From contig CACPMT010000001.1 of NCBI GenBank assembly GCA_902635045.1, forward strand, positions 156,993 to 220,992: DNA of 64,000 nucleotides, written 5' to 3'. This stretch comes from an uncultured SAR86 cluster bacterium. GTDB taxonomy: Bacteria > Pseudomonadota > Gammaproteobacteria > Magnimaribacterales > AG-339-G14. Below are positions 6,410 to 61,049 of the stretch, in pieces. Position numbers and translations under genes: made by a program. The notes beneath the pieces are model-generated. The model saw nothing but the letters and a program-made list of their open reading frames with translations, was not told the origin of the DNA and ran no database searches. The stretch's first letter is position 1; every line of letters begins with the position of its first letter.

Positions 6410-7267
6410 TTATTCTTTTTTTTTGAGAGGGCCTATTATTTGATCTAATTGTTCTAAATTTTTATAGAAAAAAGTTATTTTTCCCGATCCCTTTTTTTGA
6501 TGCGATATAGAAACCTTTGCACCCAAGACATCTCCCAGTTCAGTTTCTAAATTTACTAAATTAGGGTCTTTTGTTGATTTGGTTTTTGTTCTTTTTTCGT
6601 CCAGATAAGTTTTAGCTAAATTTTCCGCCTGTCTAGCCGACAAACCAGACTTAACTATTTTTAAAGCAAATTTTTCTTGAATTGCTTCGGGCAATGTTAG
6701 TAAAGGTCTAGCATGTCCCATGCTTAAATTGCCTGACTCAAGTAATTCCTGAACAGAAGATGTCAGCTGCAAAAGCCTAAGAGAATTAGAAATGGCCGTC
6801 CTCGATTTTCCCAAAGAAGCGCCCAAGTCTTCTTGTGTAATATTAAATTCTTTCTGCAACCTTTGGATTCCTTTGGCTTCGTCAAGAGGGTTCAAGTCTT
6901 CTCTTTGCAAATTTTCTATTAGGCCCATTTTAATTATTTCCTCGTCGGTAAGATCTTTTACGACAACGGGCACTTCCGACAATCCTGCTTTTTTGGAAGC
7001 TCTTAATCTTCTCTCTCCAGCTACTAATTCAAAATTTCCTGCAGCAGCTTTTCTTACTATTAAGGGCTGAATCACTCCTTGCGATCTTATCGAAGCTGTG
7101 AGTTCTTCAAGGCTTTCTTCTGATATATCGGTTCTGGCTTGAAATCTACTGGGCGATATTTTGCCGACACTTACAAGCGAAGAATTCGTATTCTTTTTTG
7201 AGGTGTTTTCTTCACCAAGTAGCGCGCTTAACCCCCTTTTTAGTGTTTTGTTTTCTTTTTCACTCAT
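6410..7267 (-). CDS. parB: chromosome-partitioning protein ParB
   Basis: ParB binds parS sites and spreads on DNA using CTP to load condensin and work with ParA. The 285-residue protein has the ParB/Spo0J N-terminal domain with VAGERRLRASK at about 103-113 (the conserved CTP-binding GERRxRA motif), ENLQREDLNPLDEA, and a central helix-turn-helix around LGKSRTAISNSLRLL. It begins immediately after parA. A matching parS site is present in recF at 17625-17640. Confidence 0.97.
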   Translation of the reverse strand: MSEKENKTLKRGLSALLGEENTSKKNTNSSLVSVGKISPSRFQARTDISEESLEELTASIRSQGVIQPLIVRKAAAGNFELVAGERRLRASKKAGLSEVPVVVKDLTDEEIIKMGLIENLQREDLNPLDEAKGIQRLQKEFNITQEDLGASLGKSRTAISNSLRLLQLTSSVQELLESGNLSMGHARPLLTLPEAIQEKFALKIVKSGLSARQAENLAKTYLDEKRTKTKSTKDPNLVNLETELGDVLGAKVSISHQKKGSGKITFFYKNLEQLDQIIGPLKKKE

Positions 7268-8050
7268 TTAATAAATATTCGTGTTGCTTTCAAATTTATT
7301 AATTATTTCCCCTGCCAATGCCAAATAAGCTAGCGTTCCTTTTGCTTCAGGTTCGTAATAAAGTGCTGGCATTCCGAAACTAGGCGCCTCAGCTAACTTA
7401 ACATTTCTAGGAATTACTGTGTCACATAGCTGCTCCGAAAAATGCTCCTCAAGCTCTTTAGACACTTCTCTCGAAAGCCTTATTCTAGGATCATACATTG
7501 TCCTCAAGATGCCGTTAATTTCAATATTTTCTCCAGTTGCTTCATTTATTTCTTCTAAGGTTTTGCTCATAGACGCCAGGCCTTCCAAAGAATAATATTC
7601 GCACTGAAGCGGTATTAAAACTTTTGAAGCTGCTCTTAAAGCACTTACTGAAATCATGCCAAGTGATGGTGGACAGTCGATAACAACATAATCGTATGAC
7701 GCTTGCATATTTGATAATTTATTTTTTAATAATGAAGTTGGGTTGGGAAGCGAACTTAATTCAATTTCAGCAGATATAAGATCAACACTTGATGGAATTA
7801 AATCAAATTTATATTTAGTTTGTTCAATGGCTTTTTCTATTGGAAAGCCTTCATTTAATAAAATATCAATTAAAGAATGGGAAGCTTCGTTTTTTTCTTC
7901 GCCTGTGCCTGATGTTGAATTTCCTTGAGAATCTAAATCTATCAATAAAACTGTTCTTGAGGCCGCGGATAAAGAAGCAGCAAGGTTTAATGCGGTTGTA
8001 GTTTTACCCACACCTCCTTTTTGATTTGCAACTACTAAAGTGATCAACAA
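7268..8050 (-). CDS. parA: chromosome-partitioning ATPase ParA (Soj)
   Basis: This is the Walker-type partition ATPase that moves ParB-parS complexes. The deviant Walker A motif KGGVGKTTT lies at 11-19, and DYVVIDCPPSLG (Walker B region) and LIPLQCEYYSLEGL follow. The 260-residue length is normal for a chromosomal Soj. The only start giving the complete fold is TTG (two TTG codons in a row), with no clear Shine-Dalgarno sequence. It is cotranscribed with rsmG and parB. Confidence 0.97.
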   Translation of the reverse strand: MLITLVVANQKGGVGKTTTALNLAASLSAASRTVLLIDLDSQGNSTSGTGEEKNEASHSLIDILLNEGFPIEKAIEQTKYKFDLIPSSVDLISAEIELSSLPNPTSLLKNKLSNMQASYDYVVIDCPPSLGMISVSALRAASKVLIPLQCEYYSLEGLASMSKTLEEINEATGENIEINGILRTMYDPRIRLSREVSKELEEHFSEQLCDTVIPRNVKLAEAPSFGMPALYYEPEAKGTLAYLALAGEIINKFESNTNIY

Positions 8051-8060
8051 AATTACTATA

Positions 8061-8663
8061 TCAGTTTTTTACAGGGGTAATGTTCAAAAATCCTCTATTT
8101 TTTCCTAAGATTTTTTGGGCTTCAGAAACAAAAAATTTTGACTCCCAATTAGGGTTTGAAATTAGGCTTGGCTCCGTAACCATCATTATAATTTTTAAAT
8201 TTTTATTATTTAATTTTGATATTGAATTCAACAGTTTTTCTGGTTCCATTACTGCTCTTGTAATTATTGTTTCTTCGCATATATCCTTCAGGTTTTCAAT
8301 TCTTTCTTTAAATATTTTTGTGTTTTTTAAGTCAAGCCTAGCCTGAACATGTGTTAGAAAAGATATCTTTTTTTGATTCGGCTCTAATAATCTTATGTTT
8401 TTTTCGTCGTCTATGATTGAAAGAACCATTCCTGGTAATCCTGCCCCGCTACCCACATCTAATAGATTTTTCTCTTTCAAGTGTGGTGCTAGACATGCGC
8501 AATCGAGAATGTGTTCGTTTATTGCTTCTAGATTGGCATTTCTTGAAACAAGGTTTCTAGTTTTGTTCCATTTTAGAATAAGTTTTGCATATTCGTTTAA
8601 TTGGTCTTGCTTTTTTTTTGAAAGCTTTAAATTTGTTTGATCAAACAGACTTTTTAGAGACAT
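8061..8663 (-). CDS. rsmG: 16S rRNA (guanine-527-N7)-methyltransferase RsmG
   Basis: RsmG (GidB) methylates G527 of 16S rRNA using S-adenosylmethionine. The 200-residue protein has [14 protein letters not shown] and the SAM-binding [17 protein letters not shown] at about 66-82. It overlaps the end of mnmG by 23 bases, the classical mnmG-rsmG coupling, and precedes parA-parB. Confidence 0.95.
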
Positions 8664-10527
8664 TGGCGCTTTTCCAGTTTTGTGTTCTTTTTAAATGCAC
8701 AAGTAACAACGATATAGTTGCTGGTGTTATTCCTGGAATTCTTTGAGCATGCGCTATGGTTCTTGGTTTCACTTCTAATAACTTTTGTCTAGACTCGTTG
8801 GACAAGCCCTTTATATCCTGATAAGAAAGTTGATCCGGTATCAGGGCGTTTTCATTGCTTTTAGCCTTCTCTATTTCTTTTTTTTGACGTGAAATATAGC
8901 CCGAATATTTCTCTTCTGTGACAACGTCTAAAGATACTTCCTCTGGCGCTTCTTTAATTTTTAGTACAGAACACAATTCATGATAATCAACTTCTGGCCT
9001 TTTTAATGCGTGAAGTGCAGTAATTTTTTGTTCGCTTCGGGTTTTGCTTGTTTCTAATACTCCTGGAAGATCTTTCTTTTTAATTTTTATTCCTAATAAC
9101 CTGTGTTTTTCATCCTCAATGGCATTCATTTTATTTTGAAATATTTCCCATCTTTTTTCATCGATAAGGCCTATTTTTTTTGCTATTGGTGTAAGTCTTT
9201 GATCTGCATTATCCTCTCTAAGCAGGAGCCTGTGTTCAGCTCTACTAGTAAACATTCTATAAGGTTCTTTTGTTCCTAAAGTTACTAAATCATCTATTAA
9301 GACTCCTATGTAACTTTCATTTCTTGCAGATATCCAAGGATCTTTATCATCAAGAGATAAACAAGCATTTATTGCGGCCACTAAACCTTGTGCCGCTGCT
9401 TCTTCGTAACCAGTGGTCCCATTTATTTGCCCAGCAAAATATAAATTTTCTATTTTTTTTGTTTCCAAAGTATGTTTCAGCTCTCTTGGGTCAAAAAAAT
9501 CATATTCAACGGCGTAGCCTAATTGTTCTATTTTTGCTTTTTCGAAGCCTGGAATTGAAGAAATCATTTTCTCTTGTATTTCTGCTGGCATGCTTGTCGA
9601 GATTCCATTGGGGTAAACTAAGTTTGAATTCAAGCCTTCGGGTTCAATAAAAATTTGGTGAGAGGATTTATCAGAAAATCTGAAAATTTTATCTTCAATA
9701 GAAGGGCAATATCTCGGTCCTACTCCTTCTATTTTTCCAGAAAACATGGGGGACTTATCTATTCCTTTTCTTATATATTCATGTGTTTCTTGTGTGGTTC
9801 TAGTTAAAAAACAGCTTAATTGTTTCGGGTGAATATCAGATGAATTGATGAAAGACATAGTGGGTCTTGGAACATCGCCACACTGCTCGATGGTTTTGGT
9901 CCAGTCGATAGAATTAATATTTAGCCTTGGTGGAGTTCCCGTTTTCAATCTGCCCGTTTTCAGATCTAATTCAGATAAAAAATTTGCTAAATTTTTTGAG
10001 GGTTTTTCACCTATCCTGCCACCTTCTGATGTATCTTCACCTGTAAATAACTTCCCGTTTAAAAAAGTTCCGGCAGTTAAAATTACCTTATCAGACCTTA
10101 GCTCTTTTTTATTTTTTAGAATAACCCCATTAACTTTGTAATTTTTTATAAGTAGTTCATAAACTTCAGACTCCTCTAAAGTTAGTAAGTGCTCACTTTT
10201 TATTAATCTACTCACAGAATCAGCATATAACTTTCTATCTGACTGTGCTCTAGTAGCTCTTACAGCCGGACCCTTTGAAGCATTAAGAACTCTAAAATGA
10301 ATACCTGCTCTATCTGCGCTTACCGCCATTAGGCCGCCCATGGCATCTATTTCTTTCACCAAATGACTCTTTCCTATTCCACCTATCGCAGGGTTGCAAG
10401 ACATTTTTCCAATGTCTTTTTTTGACTGGGTTATTAAACAAACTTTTTTCCCATATCTAGCGCATGCAAAAGCAGCTTCGGTCCCCGCATGCCCGCCTCC
10501 AATTACAATAATGTCGAACTTATTCAT
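8641..10527 (-). CDS. mnmG: tRNA uridine-34 carboxymethylaminomethyl synthase subunit MnmG
   Basis: MnmG (GidA) with MnmE installs the cmnm5 group on wobble U34 of tRNAs, using FAD and NADH. The 628-residue protein starts [19 protein letters not shown], the FAD-binding GxGxxG fold, and carries [27 protein letters not shown] and YEEAAAQG. The C-terminal helical domain needed for MnmE and tRNA binding is intact. The partner mnmE lies 245 bases upstream on the same strand. Confidence 0.98.
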
Positions 10528-16132: not shown

Positions 16133-17233
16133 ATGAAATTTACAGTAGAAAAAAAAGAGATAGCAGAGGCTTTAAGTCTTGTAGCGTCTGTTGCTGAAAA
16201 AAGGCAGTCAATCCCGGTCTTGTCTAACATTCTTTTAAAGGCTGAGAAGGATGGCCTCACTTTGATAGCAACTGACCTTGAGATAGAGCTTACCTTCAAA
16301 ATATCAAAAATAGTATTAGATAAAGAAGGAGAAACAACTGCTTCCGCTAGAAAACTTGCTGATTTAGTTAGATCTGTGCCTGAGGATACAGTTTTGACGT
16401 TCGAGCTATTAGAAAATCAATTAGAGATAAGTGCCCTCAAATTTCAAGCGGACTTTTCAACTTTACCAGTAGGAGATTTTCCAGTTACTGAAATAAGTGA
16501 ATTTGAAAGAGATGTTGCTCTTCCTGGAAGAGAATTGGCAGACTTAATCGAAAAAACTTCTTTTGCAATGGCATCTCAAGATGTTAGATATTACTTGAAT
16601 GGAATCCTCTTAGAAGTTTCTCCTTCACAAATAAATGTTGTTGCAACGGACGGTCATAGATTAGCTTGGGCCTCATGCAAAATTAAAACGGATTTTACCG
16701 ATGAAAAAATAATAATTCCCCGAAAATCTGCAATAGAGCTTCAGAAATTGCTAAATCTTTTTCCAGATAATGTAAATATAGCCTTTAATTCTAATCAATT
16801 AAGAGTTTTTTCAGATGAATTCATCTTTATATCAAAACTCATTGAGGGCTCATATCCTGATTATGAAAAGGTTTTCCCTCAAGGTACTGAGCAAAAGCTT
16901 AAAGCAAATAAATCATCAGTTCAAACAGCTCTTAACAGAGCTGCGGTTTTATCAAATGAGAAGTATAGAGGAGTAAAATTCATTCTGAATAAAGATAATT
17001 TAAAAATTTGCGCCAATAATCCCAGCAAAGAAAGCGCTGAAGAGGAAGTGACTGTTGATTATGCCGGAGAATCATTTGAAATAGGCTTTAACATATCTTA
17101 CGTTCAAGAATCTTTATCAGTGATCTCAAACAGTGAAGTAGAGTTTGTTTTTTTTGGCTCCGAAAACTCATGCTTAGTTAAAAATATTGACGATGAGAGT
17201 TTAATACATGTAATCATGCCAATGAGATTATGA
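16133..17233 (+). CDS. dnaN: DNA polymerase III sliding clamp (beta subunit)
   Basis: This is the ring-shaped processivity clamp. It has 366 residues, three similar domains, starts MKFTVEKKEIAEALSLVASV and ends in the conserved HVIMPMRL. The segment RYYLNGILLE and the DGHRLAW motif, typical of bacterial clamps, are present near the middle. It is in operon order between dnaA and recF. Confidence 0.98.
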   Translation: MKFTVEKKEIAEALSLVASVAEKRQSIPVLSNILLKAEKDGLTLIATDLEIELTFKISKIVLDKEGETTASARKLADLVRSVPEDTVLTFELLENQLEISALKFQADFSTLPVGDFPVTEISEFERDVALPGRELADLIEKTSFAMASQDVRYYLNGILLEVSPSQINVVATDGHRLAWASCKIKTDFTDEKIIIPRKSAIELQKLLNLFPDNVNIAFNSNQLRVFSDEFIFISKLIEGSYPDYEKVFPQGTEQKLKANKSSVQTALNRAAVLSNEKYRGVKFILNKDNLKICANNPSKESAEEEVTVDYAGESFEIGFNISYVQESLSVISNSEVEFVFFGSENSCLVKNIDDESLIHVIMPMRL

Positions 17234-17236
17234 TAA

Positions 17237-18262
17237 ATGTATTTTTCCAGAGTTCACTTAATAAATTTTAGGCCTTTTTCTGACATTGTCTTTAATCTAG
17301 AAGAAACAACCTTAATAACAGGCAGAAATGGTTCTGGAAAGACTTCGATTTTAGAGGCAATTCATGTTTTATTAAAATCTAGGTCTTTTAGAACTTCATC
17401 TATAAACAGTCTAATAACTCGAGAAAAGGAAAATTTCATACTTAGCGCAAAGCTCGGCGAAGATTTGCTAGTTTTTGAAAAAAAAAGAAGGAATCAAGCA
17501 ACAAACAATGGATATAAAACAGAGGATTATAAATACAAAAATTTTCCAATTTTAATAAATAACTTTAGTTTAGCTTTTTTAGAAGCTGATAAGGAGCTAA
17601 GAAGAAAGATCTTAGATTATTTTATGTTTCACGTGAAACATGATTATGCTGATAATCTTAAAAAATTTAAAAAAACTCTTTTTAGTCGAAATATGGCTCT
17701 TAAAAAAAACAATGAAGAAGAAATTAACATTTGGACAAAATTATTAGTTGAGCACGCAGAAAAAATTACTAACGACAGAGAAGAAATATTTAATAAAGTG
17801 ATTGAAAATGTTCCTAAGTTTTTTCTTAATTTGCCTCTTGATAAAAAGTGGAAAAGAATTATCGATGAAATGTCTTTAGATTTTTATAAAGGTTGGGAGA
17901 AGGGCGAATTAATAGAGGCTCTTAGAAAAAATTTTCAAGAAGATATGAAAAGAGGATACACAAAATTTGGACCTCAAAGGTTTGACTTGGAAGTTAACAT
18001 TTCAAAAGATAAAGCTGGAAATGTTTTATCTAGGGGCGAGCAAAAGCTATTGATTTTATTGATTTTTTTATGCTTTGGTGAGTTTACCGCACATAATACT
18101 TGCAGAAGAGTTTATTATCTCATCGATGATGCGACAGCTGAATTTGACGAAGAAAATTTATATTTAGCTTTAAAATCTTTAGAAAAAGTTAAAGGTCAAA
18201 AGATTATTTCTTCTATAAAAAAACCTGAAAATATTAAATTTAATTCCGTTATTGATTTATAA
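17237..18262 (+). CDS. recF: recombination mediator RecF
   Basis: RecF is an SMC-like ATPase that helps load RecA at gaps. The 341-residue protein has Walker A GRNGSGKTS at about 30-38, the signature LSRGEQKLLILLIFL and the Walker B-like YYLIDDATAEFD. It is divergent in the middle. The sequence contains a perfect parS site at 17625-17640, encoding part of MFHVKHD. It starts 3 bases after dnaN. Confidence 0.96.
   Translation: MYFSRVHLINFRPFSDIVFNLEETTLITGRNGSGKTSILEAIHVLLKSRSFRTSSINSLITREKENFILSAKLGEDLLVFEKKRRNQATNNGYKTEDYKYKNFPILINNFSLAFLEADKELRRKILDYFMFHVKHDYADNLKKFKKTLFSRNMALKKNNEEEINIWTKLLVEHAEKITNDREEIFNKVIENVPKFFLNLPLDKKWKRIIDEMSLDFYKGWEKGELIEALRKNFQEDMKRGYTKFGPQRFDLEVNISKDKAGNVLSRGEQKLLILLIFLCFGEFTAHNTCRRVYYLIDDATAEFDEENLYLALKSLEKVKGQKIISSIKKPENIKFNSVIDL
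17625..17640. promoter_or_regulatory. parS: parS centromere site
   Basis: TGTTTCACGTGAAACA is a perfect 16-bp palindrome identical to the canonical bacterial chromosomal parS bound by ParB/Spo0J. It lies inside the recF coding sequence, about 2.9 kb from the DnaA boxes and about 10 kb from parB. I saw no second perfect copy in the window, though I could not search exhaustively by computation. Confidence 0.93.
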
Positions 18263-21224
<2,962 letters not shown>

Positions 21225-47738: not shown

Positions 47739-49802
47739 TTATTCAACGTATTCGGCTAAATCTGATTGCATAGATTGAGCTGGCGCTAATTCGTTGGAGC
47801 CAGTTGGGACAAACCAAATTGGCGAAGACCAGGCTCTTTCTTGAATAGTGTCGTGAATATCAGGCCTAGGAGCTAGACCCCTTTTGATTGCATCCCAAGT
47901 TGACCACCTACAAGTTGGATTCTCTAGAACTCTTACGTAGTAAAAAGCTCTATCATTTGGATTGAATTCAGGATCTGTCCAAGTCGCTTTTAATTCAGCT
48001 GAGCCAACATCTTTTGAAAAGGCACAGGTTTCGATATCGACCCGAGCACCATTGTCTGGACATCTATTGGTTTCAGGGTTTACTTCTAGGCCATTAGAGC
48101 AAGCAACATCGTATATGACCTCGGTTGGAGAAGAGTCAAATTGACTGATGGAGCCTTTGATTATTTGCACTCTTTGCAGGGGTGCTCCATGTTTATCCCT
48201 TTGTGCCCAAACTAAGAAACTTGGCACTTTATCTCCGTCCGCTAAAATTTCACCCCCCATAGTCGAACTATTTGCATAAGCAGCTTTGACTAAGTTCTCG
48301 TCATTTAAATCTAGTTGATCTGTCTCAAATCCCCCAAAAAATCTGACTTTGATTCTATTACCTGTTGTAGCAAAAGTCTCCTTTCGACGCATTGCTGAAA
48401 ATATAGAATCTCTTGTGTTTTCTTCAGCCCAAACACCTGCAAGACCAGATGCACCCCAGGTTTCAAAACCTGTATTTGCGTAAGTACCTTGATCTGTCTC
48501 AGTGACACTTACACCTGCACCGCCTTGAGGCAATTGGTCTACTTGTAACTCGCTTAAGGGAACACTACCTCGTCCTTCAGGAGTACCATCAATAATTCCA
48601 ATTTTTGACCAATAATCTTCTTCACTATAAGCTCCAGCTCCAGTGTGAGAATCACTTGCCCCGATTAAGCCAAATTTGAAAGGATTTCCCTGTGCGCTGT
48701 ACTCTAAAACCATACCTTTAATAAAAGCATCTCTGACATATCCACCAGCTGGAAAACTGTAGGTTCTAGGAAAAGAACCAATTCTAGATTCATAGATTCC
48801 AAAATCAGCAAATTCGTCATTTGGAGATAAAAGAGGATGAGTGTCTGAAGTCCCTTTCACCTGAGTCATTTCAACGATTGGTTCATTTCTCATTCTCATT
48901 TCTGAGTAGGCTTGCGTAATTGGTTTTCCATTAAAAGTTCGCATATCAAACATTGCACCATTAGAACCATTCGAGTTGTGGGGAATAGCAATTGAGTCAA
49001 CGCCCAATTCTCTCAATCCATCCATCCATTTCCATAAATTTTCTGGATTTATCGAATCAATTCTTGAATGAGGCCTCACCGGTATTTGATCGCCTTTAAA
49101 AATTACATTCCTATGAAGGTTTCCATTGCCAACATCTGTCGAAGTTGTAAATTCGTATGCGGTGAAAGTAGTAAATCTTCCAGGATCATTAGCTTCTTCC
49201 GCGGCTCGGACTATGTCAGCCCAAGCAGAAATATGTGTATCGTGATCAAAAACTTTGGAGCCAATCTGCAAGTGAGGAGTTAAGATGGCACGCCACAAAG
49301 TCGGATCCCACCAAGGGCGCACATCAGCAAGAATATTTCTTACTTGATTACCAAACAAGTTAAAACGATCAACTATGGAATCAACGCCTCGGTTGCCATC
49401 ACGGTTTAAATCATGAAAAGCTTCTACTCCAGGTAGAGTTGAAGCATAAGTCGAAGTATCCGCCCAAGCGTTGATCATACCTAGGAAAAAAGCGTGATCG
49501 GTTACAGCATAAAAATCCAACGGCTCTTTTATTTTCATATCAAAACCGAGTGGATGTTGAATAGCTTCGCCTTGGGCAAAGCGGTAAGCATCGTCAGGTG
49601 TTGCAGTTGTACCGAAAATATAAGCGTCAAAAGAATATTTAGTATGAATATGAGTGTCTCCAAAGTAAGCATTCCTGTCTTCGTTGTAATCAGGGGTCGT
49701 CGTTACAGCTGGAGCAACACCAGAATAATCAACAATTTCGTATCTAGTATCAGTACAGCTGATAAAAGTTAAAACTAAAATAGTTATAAAAAGATGTTTC
49801 AC
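47739..49802 (-). CDS. DUF3604 lipoprotein (PHP-like metal-dependent hydrolase)
   Basis: The 687-residue protein has a lipoprotein signal with ISC as lipobox (Cys16). Metal-ligand motifs of a PHP-like fold are visible: GDTHIHTKYSFDAYIFG (His51 and His53), VTDHAFFLGM, AIPHNSNGSNG and GASDSHTGAGAYS. These match DUF3604, a family common in marine and soil Gram-negatives whose substrate is not established. The start is GTG with GGGGG upstream. It heads the HupE-PPIase-DUF3604 trio. Confidence 0.9.
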   Translation of the reverse strand: MKHLFITILVLTFISCTDTRYEIVDYSGVAPAVTTTPDYNEDRNAYFGDTHIHTKYSFDAYIFGTTATPDDAYRFAQGEAIQHPLGFDMKIKEPLDFYAVTDHAFFLGMINAWADTSTYASTLPGVEAFHDLNRDGNRGVDSIVDRFNLFGNQVRNILADVRPWWDPTLWRAILTPHLQIGSKVFDHDTHISAWADIVRAAEEANDPGRFTTFTAYEFTTSTDVGNGNLHRNVIFKGDQIPVRPHSRIDSINPENLWKWMDGLRELGVDSIAIPHNSNGSNGAMFDMRTFNGKPITQAYSEMRMRNEPIVEMTQVKGTSDTHPLLSPNDEFADFGIYESRIGSFPRTYSFPAGGYVRDAFIKGMVLEYSAQGNPFKFGLIGASDSHTGAGAYSEEDYWSKIGIIDGTPEGRGSVPLSELQVDQLPQGGAGVSVTETDQGTYANTGFETWGASGLAGVWAEENTRDSIFSAMRRKETFATTGNRIKVRFFGGFETDQLDLNDENLVKAAYANSSTMGGEILADGDKVPSFLVWAQRDKHGAPLQRVQIIKGSISQFDSSPTEVIYDVACSNGLEVNPETNRCPDNGARVDIETCAFSKDVGSAELKATWTDPEFNPNDRAFYYVRVLENPTCRWSTWDAIKRGLAPRPDIHDTIQERAWSSPIWFVPTGSNELAPAQSMQSDLAEYVE

Positions 49803-59329: not shown

Positions 59330-60952
59330 TTATGAAGATGGAGTTCTTTGGTTAAAAAAAGGCTTAGATTCTTCATAAAATCTATCTAATAAAGCTTTTG
59401 CGACCTTTGAACCTTTCTTTTTATTAAGATTCAAAGCGCTCACAATAGAAAATTTTTCAGTACGAGAAAATTTATCGCTTTCATTGAGAGCCTTTAGGAA
59501 ATCATCACCCAAAGCCGTCAGATCCAAACAATCAAGACTTTTGTTTAAGTATGGAGCTAATACAACTTCTTTCCATGCAGATGTCCTCTTAGGATTTGTT
59601 AGCCATTCAAAAGCAGACTCCATATCAATGAAAGTTCTTTTATCTTTTTCAGCTTTTCTTAAATTAGGGCTTAAATAAATATCTCTATCTGTAACTTTTA
59701 TTAAGCCCGAGTTCTTTCTGGTCAATTCATTTTTGAGAGTTTTAAGTGTCGATAATTCCGCGAGGTTGGTTAGTGCGACTAATGAGATTTTATAATTTTG
59801 AGCAAAACCTTTGCCTGCAGTATCTCTTGTGAATAAAAATCTGCAAACATCTCTCCTGGCTCGCAATGCATCCAATAAATATATAATTGAATTCATGAAT
59901 ATGTTATCTAAGTCGGTGCGATTTGTTTCAAACATTAGTTCAAGTTGTAAGTCTACGTTATTTTTAGCCTCGACATTTTCATCAAATACTTCCGACTCAA
60001 GAATATCTTTGTAAAAGAATTTGTTACCTAGATATATGCTTTCAAGGAAATCACTATTCGGACCTGAAAAGTAGGCAAGCTTTTTAAAATTGTGTCTTAG
60101 GTAGCTTTTTAATGTTGAAACAGGTTTATATTGTTTATCATCACTAGCTGGTTGTTGCATCTTTTCCAATCGGTTCAAAAGTTTTTTTACTCTGCCTATG
60201 ATTATTTCTAGCTGTTCTGTGTGCAATTCAAGACACGCATTGGGCCTTCCAAGCTGTTCACTTATGTCTTCAAAATCATTGAAATTTTGAAATTTTGCAA
60301 AGGTAGAGCTGGCTTCTTCTTGAACCTCGTGAACTAAATAATTTCTTTTTAAGAAATTTAAGTCAGAAGCACTTAAGTTATTATTTTGGCTCATCATTTC
60401 TTCCCTTCCATATCCTGCCAAAGGGGAAATACCCTGAATTGCTAAAAATCCATGAAGTAAAGTTTCATGAGATTCTTTGATTATAGAAGATTTAAAAAAA
60501 TCATTATTTAAGGCAGCTACAGTGCCGTGACCGGGTAAAAGTTCTTTTGGTGTTTCTATACCTATATGAGAGCTTTTCTTTAAAAGACCATTAGCTCCTA
60601 TGAAAGAAATTAATTTATCGTATAAAACTTTGTGATCTTGTTTTTCACCCTCTGATGATGGGGGACTATCGCTGCCATCAAATTTTTTTAGAATAGAAAC
60701 TAATTCAGACGTATTAAAAGGAAAATAAAGGTCAACATTCTCGCCCCAGGCTTCAGCAAAAGAGTTCCAGAATACTTTATGGATAAATGAATCTTCATTA
60801 ATCATTAAAGCTATTAATTTAAGATTATGCTGACTTATCGATACTTCATCCATCCATATAGGATTGAGTCGAGATATTATTTGTCCACCATCGAGAATTG
60901 GGTTTCTTAAATAAAGGAAAGATCTTATTAATGTGTCTTCAAATTCTTTCAT
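59330..60952 (-). CDS. large uncharacterised protein of the divergent accessory locus
   Basis: From the ATG at 60952 the product is 540 residues; a TTG 19 codons upstream would add unrelated hydrophobic sequence and is not preferred. It is soluble, leucine-rich and probably all-helical, with no signal peptide, P-loop, nuclease or methylase motif visible. Marked segments are ETLLHGFLAIQGISPLAGYG at about residue 166-185 and RDVCRFLFTRDTAGKGFAQN in the second half. I recognise no family. Divergent from a GHKL ATPase operon, with which it probably shares a regulatory region. Confidence 0.8.
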   Translation of the reverse strand: MKEFEDTLIRSFLYLRNPILDGGQIISRLNPIWMDEVSISQHNLKLIALMINEDSFIHKVFWNSFAEAWGENVDLYFPFNTSELVSILKKFDGSDSPPSSEGEKQDHKVLYDKLISFIGANGLLKKSSHIGIETPKELLPGHGTVAALNNDFFKSSIIKESHETLLHGFLAIQGISPLAGYGREEMMSQNNNLSASDLNFLKRNYLVHEVQEEASSTFAKFQNFNDFEDISEQLGRPNACLELHTEQLEIIIGRVKKLLNRLEKMQQPASDDKQYKPVSTLKSYLRHNFKKLAYFSGPNSDFLESIYLGNKFFYKDILESEVFDENVEAKNNVDLQLELMFETNRTDLDNIFMNSIIYLLDALRARRDVCRFLFTRDTAGKGFAQNYKISLVALTNLAELSTLKTLKNELTRKNSGLIKVTDRDIYLSPNLRKAEKDKRTFIDMESAFEWLTNPKRTSAWKEVVLAPYLNKSLDCLDLTALGDDFLKALNESDKFSRTEKFSIVSALNLNKKKGSKVAKALLDRFYEESKPFFNQRTPSS

Positions 60953-60992
60953 AATCAGATACAGAGAATAATAAACTATATAATTTTTTTGT

Positions 60993-61049
60993 AAAGCGAA
61001 TAAATTCAATTATTTTACACACGTAAAAACTTGACAAAGCGAAAAAATT
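60993..61049. promoter_or_regulatory. divergent regulatory region with direct and inverted repeats
   Basis: Two near-identical 14-bp elements, AAAGCGAATAAATT (60993-61006) and AAAGCGAAAAAATT (61036-61049), flank a perfect inverted repeat TTTTAC-ACAC-GTAAAA (61013-61028). The second direct repeat overlaps the -35/spacer of the rightward promoter. A repressor controlling both directions is a reasonable inference. Confidence 0.55.

Follow-up and report, generated by a model that had tools for sequence, protein, structure and literature searches.

The recF gene of this SAR86 genome contains a 16-bp palindrome with the sequence of a chromosomal parS, and the question it raises is whether this is the centromere of the chromosome or a by-product of a peptide that RecF needs for its own function. 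A single, protein-coding centromere per chromosome would be a minimal natural ParABS system, one that makes testable how many parS are needed, at what distance from oriC, and what ParB spreading does to the dnaA operon, questions that are blurred by redundancy elsewhere. Our answer, to which we attach a probability of about 0.93, is that the palindrome is the chromosomal parS of this genome and probably its only one, that selection acts on the DNA with the RecF residues following, and that recF ancestrally carried two such sites, of which different families have kept different ones. The evidence lies in the sequence, position and uniqueness of the site, its conservation at the codon level, its co-occurrence with ParB, and the reciprocal retention of sites between families.

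A parS palindrome in frame within recF

The features of the window (the whole 64-kb stretch of DNA that was analysed) are given in Table 1. An earlier note, made from the letters alone, had proposed a perfect parS inside recF, and this is what the scan returned: TGTTTCACGTGAAACA is a perfect 16-bp palindrome that agrees with the parS consensus TGTTNCACGTGNAACA at 16/16 positions, and the gene that holds it in frame is recognised as recF by TIGR00611. It occupies recF codons 130–135, read as M-FHVK-H, and lies 2.8 kb from the start of dnaA and 10.4 kb from parAB, near oriC as placed by gene context (dnaA-dnaN-recF-gyrB and gidAB-parAB). The parB gene, the parA-like gene (together 6410–8050) and gidAB are found about 10 kb upstream of recF; the ParB match is strong, and that of ParA falls below the curated cut-off of the single model. 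An SMC gene is present elsewhere in the genome. Neither the Rfam nor the tRNA scan found a match in the window. The window also encodes a 687-aa protein assigned to DUF3604, an uncharacterised family (47739–49802, E 4.5e-214), and a 559-aa ORF (59330–61009) without a Pfam match at E 0.001.

Table 1. Features of the window around the recF parS site
Feature	Position	Strand	Remarks
parS, perfect palindrome TGTTTCACGTGAAACA	17625..17640	.	sole parS-like site found in assembled genome
recF	17237..18262	+	TIGR00611, E 2.4e-70, above cut-off; hosts parS in frame
recF 3' end	18240..18262	+	place of second in-frame parS in most class relatives read; none recognisable in window
parB (ParB/Spo0J)	6410..7267	-	TIGR00180
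parA-like ATPase, adjoins parB	7268..8050	-	best NCBIfam match ParA_partition, E 9e-32, below curated cut-off (110/180 bits)
dnaA	14798..16129	+	TIGR00362
dnaN	16133..17233	+	TIGR00663
gyrB, 6 bp 3' of recF	18269..20692	+	NF011501 / TIGR01059
rsmG (gidB) and mnmG (gidA), usual neighbours of chromosomal parAB	8061..10527	-	TIGR00138, TIGR00136

At 0–2 mismatches, this is the only parS match in the window, and to that threshold the note's claim that it stands alone was borne out; two matches with 3 mismatches occur elsewhere (8881 and 54221), where shuffled sequences are expected to give 0.34 matches with ≤3 mismatches. An exact 16-mer should arise by chance about 1.5e-5 times per 64 kb (arithmetic, equal base frequencies), and a chance origin was rejected on the mismatch scans of the window and of the whole genome. 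The genome (1,112,281 bp in 9 contigs) has a single parS at ≤2 mismatches, the one in recF, so the further sites that the note had suggested looking for are absent at this threshold from the assembled 1.11 Mb, a draft that is 88.5% complete and of which about 11% may be missing; sequences very unlike the consensus would escape such a mismatch search. No second parS is recognisable at the 3' end of recF in this genome (≤2 mismatches) or in its family, f1.

Codon conservation in family f1

One parS was found in each of 35 of the 40 f1 genomes (the window genome included; ≤1 mismatch), at the same recF codons in 35/35, and another genome (G037) has TGTTCCACGTGGAACA at these codons. The site is thus present in 36/36 f1 genomes whose recF covers the region, despite a RecF identity to the window protein that goes down to 33%; the RecF of the best named match, SAR86 cluster bacterium AG-337-B16 (L133), is 87% identical to it. 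The f1 genomes in which parS was not found either have no recF match (G010, G024 and G031) or match RecF residues 236–341 only (G002). A single-contig member of the family (G006, 1,194,046 bp) has exactly one parS at ≤1 mismatch. The sole second match in f1 is an asymmetric parS-like sequence, GTTCCACATGGAAC, in another genome (G020:C2:79017-79030).

At the f1 site, the histidine codon is CAC in 36/36 and the valine codon GTG in 36/36, in genes with a third-position GC of 21–32% and in which GTG encodes 37/367 of the other valines (~10%). Three residues vary (M/L130, K/E134 and H/Q135), the only changes being those that preserve parS, and the synonymous choices are TTG for L130 (17/17), AAA for K (14/14) and GAA for E (22/22). 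Because CAC and GTG are fixed, and M/L, K/E and H/Q vary only within what parS allows, the f1 codon pattern is one of selection on the DNA.

Two in-frame sites in recF across the class

The class was sampled with 232 genomes, for which 90% completeness was requested and to which the window genome was added. The site region of recF was read at the DNA level in 174/232 of them, 119 through a RecF-context pattern that is codon-neutral for FHV and 55 by fetching the better-scoring recF among the matches listed, plus G068; the 58 unread include some with weak RecF matches. The internal parS core is intact in 146/174: TTYCACGTGRAAC occurs in 116 of the 119 pattern-found genes (CAC in 118, GTG in 117), and the 55 fetched genes have it intact in 30, one mismatch off in 4 and lost in 21. 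In a further set of 80 named loci, retrieved with a peptide pattern that had FHV[EK] as one of two and so leans to FHV, not to particular codons, it is intact in 60, one mismatch off in 3 and lost in 17, with carriers that include Pseudomonas, Halomonas, Legionella, Acinetobacter, Haliea and Colwellia. By alignment, Pseudomonas loci (e.g. L146, L160-L165) have parS at the same RecF codons as the window; the exception among them is P. chlororaphis EA105 (L153), which keeps FHVE with broken parS DNA, as does Photobacterium iliopiscarium (L168).

Codon usage was compared in 165 loci, made up of the 80 named ones, the 55 fetched genes and 30 of the 119 found by pattern. Among the 127 recF genes encoding FHV[EK], 119 use CAC-GTG-RAA, where 11.3 (sd 3.2) are expected from each gene's codon use; the class and family genomes are related, and such counts are not of independent events. 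The seven most codon-conserved of 131 recF columns all fall in the internal or the C-terminal parS, a behaviour that other synonymous positions of these genes do not share. Selection on the DNA, as would mark a chromosomal parS, is seen in both the family and the class comparisons; conservation in relatives is clearly on the DNA side, with synonymous positions fixed, and the idea that the embedded site constrains the RecF peptide FHVKH is supported by both. Judging from its distribution, the internal position is ancient in the class.

A second parS lies about 600–660 bp downstream of the internal one in most class recF genes that were read that far. Translation places it in frame inside recF, and not in the recF-gyrB spacer, in 44/44, 22/22 and 61/63 cases (three sets), and where both are present RecF spells FHV[EK] twice, in the middle and at the C-terminus. 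Many relatives in the class have two or more parS sites. In one 2.6-Mb genome (G139), TGTTYCACGTGRAACM occurs 12 times, always on the forward and never on the reverse strand, perhaps as an array of parS-like sites. When the internal core is lost (n=21), the second parS is kept in 12, as a one-mismatch relic only in G194 and as the f2 variant in G068, and neither is kept in 9. Six of these 9 are ParB-positive (G210, G088, G171, G099, G180 and G266), so a recF location is not obligatory in general; some lineages have relocated parS or use other sequences. Four draft genomes of 130–380 contigs (G118, G152, G153 and G267) have parS with ParB matches absent or weak.

Retention of different sites among SAR86 families

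RecF was found in 185/203 genomes of the order, and parS in 183/185 of those with a recF match versus 0/18 of those without; the two exceptions (G002 and G391) have a partial or weak recF match. ParB was found in 166/203, and in 40/40 of those at least 90% complete. The internal parS alone is present in f1 (36 of 40 genomes) and f155 (33 of 35, all within recF by coordinates; 12/12 read), and a single-contig f155 genome (G406) has exactly one parS. Family f154 has the C-terminal site only (96 of 107 genomes; 20/20 read), its internal codons now reading FVSD, FIAS, FTAD, FLSD and similar. Both sites are found in 17 of the 21 f2 genomes, and one in G422, in the form TGTTCYACGTRGAACA, with RecF reading FYVE in 8/8 read. 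SAR86 families have retained different single recF sites, and f2 both in variant form; the ancestral recF would have carried two parS, internal and C-terminal. Loss in relatives with intact parAB, which the earlier note had named as evidence against the site, does occur in f154, a family of the same order that keeps ParB, but since f154 retains the second recF parS, this is a swap and does not argue against function.

RecF residues, and perhaps ParB contacts, change with the site

Shifts in the DNA are followed in the protein. Outside SAR86, G061 has TGTTCCACATGGAACA at both sites and a RecF reading FHME, and G042 reads FHMK with a matching site variant. Paired sites shift together, being both CACGTAG in G187, both CATGTGG (recF strand) in G200, and related variants in G234. 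Residues drift where sites are lost, to FHNE in E. coli K-12 (L072) and two Xenorhabdus, FHHH in Gilliamella and FYLD in Francisella. F131 is nearly always retained, also where parS is lost, and the motif is to that extent protein-constrained. In a single-contig genome with no ParB match (G194), both recF parS survive only as decayed relics, and a member of the same genus (G064) has ParB and both sites; given these relics, the loss of ParB in G194 may be recent. Two genomes without a ParB match, G194 and G260 (1.0 and 2.0 Mb), are rated 99–100% complete.

In the helix-turn-helix of the window ParB, the contact residues are of the parS type, namely Q162, G170, K171, S172, R173, N178, G201 and R204 (residue list and Caulobacter numbering from PMC7383237, in part, which describes R204 as a conserved parS contact). 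Residue 204 was surveyed in 26 ParBs (loci compared: L255-L274, L113, L115, L150, L202 and L252). R204 is found in f1 (5/5), f155 (4/4) and a class comparator (G102), and every parS found in f1 and f155 has a CACGTG core; f2 (7/7), f154 (8/8) and G061 have K204 instead, together with a variable core. This covariation is offered as a lead only, and R204K may relax the need for a CACGTG core. The f154 ParB also has S172A, and that of f2 S172P. Residues of the Noc type (Q173, K179/K184 and R201) are replaced in the window ParB by R173, S179, Q184 and G201, and it scores 215/315 bits against the Noc model, below the cut-off; on R173/G201 and this score, identity with Noc and its binding sites was rejected.

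Function of the site and alternative explanations

As a chromosomal centromere, the site would be loaded by the ParB encoded 10 kb away, which would then spread over the dnaA-dnaN-recF-gyrB region and condense the origin region, and ParA, together with SMC loading, would separate newly copied origin regions. The site would be written in recF codons M/L-F-H-V-E/K-H/Q, with RecF residues 132–134 following from the DNA. From a recF ancestor with two sites, streamlined SAR86 families would each have kept one (internal in f1 and f155, C-terminal in f154), and f2 both, with shifted sequence.

Two explanations dispense with a centromere, and we give either next to no weight. If RecF depended on the peptide FHV[EK] to function, the resemblance to parS would be a by-product; the near-constant F131, kept even with the site lost, speaks for a part of the motif being so constrained. 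Protein constraint alone was nevertheless rejected on codon fixation (119/127 against 11.3 expected; CAC and GTG 36/36 in an AT-rich family) and on the free drift of H, V and E/K after site loss (FHNE in E. coli, FYLD, FHHH, FVSD, FIAS), and the same residues recur at the RecF C-terminus where the second parS is. The palindrome might instead be used by another CACGTG-binding protein, CACGTG being a common regulator core in general, but conservation covers the full 16-bp parS, the two sites change jointly in lineages whose ParB helix-turn-helix is variant, and both are decayed or gone in the well-assembled genomes without ParB (G194 and G260).

Two others accept a real parS. That it serves mainly for ParB regulation of the dnaA-dnaN-recF-gyrB operon, with segregation secondary, is improbable: excess ParB in P. 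aeruginosa lowers expression around parS1–4, and interference with dnaA-dnaN-recF-gyrB was judged likely by the authors, but at native ParB levels the effect was confined to genes next to the intergenic parS3/4 and did not extend to those at the intragenic parS1/2 (PMC5521831, in part), and a single oriC-proximal site was sufficient for segregation (PMC4368675, in part). Somewhat less unlikely, though still doubtful, is that the site is not the sole centromere and that it acts alongside other ParB sites, divergent or unassembled. The genome is incomplete, as noted, many class relatives have at least two sites, and P. aeruginosa has ten (PMC4368675, in part); against this stand the single site of the genome at up to 2 mismatches, the exactly one site in each of the single-contig genomes of f1 and f155, and the asymmetry of the only extra f1 match (G020). 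Since P. aeruginosa segregates with one oriC-proximal site, a one-site SAR86 chromosome would be workable, and a single recF centromere is the reading we prefer.

Extending this reading beyond the window genome, we consider it reasonably likely that this order of marine bacteria runs chromosome segregation from recF-embedded parS, usually one per genome, with families differing in which of two ancestral in-frame sites they kept, and that the gammaproteobacterial FHV[EK], both mid-protein and C-terminal, is the imprint of the centromere on RecF, changing with the site (FYVE in f2, FHME and FHMK in others) and decaying with loss of the site or of ParB (FHNE in E. coli), the shift being accompanied by ParB R204K and perhaps by a relaxed need for CACGTG. 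This would be a clear example of part of a protein sequence being dictated by a DNA element across a bacterial class, in which RecF conservation at the parS positions is not to be taken as protein function, and the paired shifted sites and ParB R204K would be natural experiments on a centromere and its reader changing together. The open papers searched held no account of the SAR86 single-site state, of reciprocal retention between families, or of an imprint on RecF; Livny et al. 2007 is reportedly the main parS survey.

Comparison with known systems

The window parS belongs to the published class of recF-embedded sites known from P. aeruginosa, in which parS1 and parS2 lie within recF, about 4 kb from oriC, with parAB some 7 kb away on the opposite side (PMC5521831, PMC3909081, PMC4368675, all in part). 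This bears out the statement that coding-embedded parS near the origin are known in other bacteria, and within a mostly open-access literature, only the P. aeruginosa papers were found to treat the recF sites. In sequence, the P. aeruginosa sites (TGTTCCACGTGGAACC and TGTTCCACGTGGAACA) agree with the internal recF site found in other Pseudomonas genomes and with the C-terminal site in its general form. The window parS is very probably the counterpart of parS1, a homology that we infer through other Pseudomonas genomes, and, as its recF has no recognisable second parS at the 3' end, it is a one-site version of the P. aeruginosa arrangement. P. aeruginosa has ten parS, four of high affinity and six with two mismatches, compared to one in the window genome, and that one oriC-proximal site suffices for its segregation was established through mutations silent for the encoded protein (PMC4368675, in part).

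Caulobacter crescentus and Bacillus subtilis share the same 16-bp palindrome and ParB family, and the Caulobacter ParB contacts are conserved in the window ParB. In both species there are several parS, located elsewhere. Caulobacter has a single locus of tandem parS, and B. subtilis ten sites (PMC4368675/PMC5521831, in part). PMC5815017 (in part) reports only a Tn5 hot spot for additional parS in the Caulobacter recF-gyrB region. The Noc binding sites (NBS) pair a related ParB-fold protein with a palindrome, and the window ParB differs from Noc in having R173 and G201 in place of Q173 and R201.
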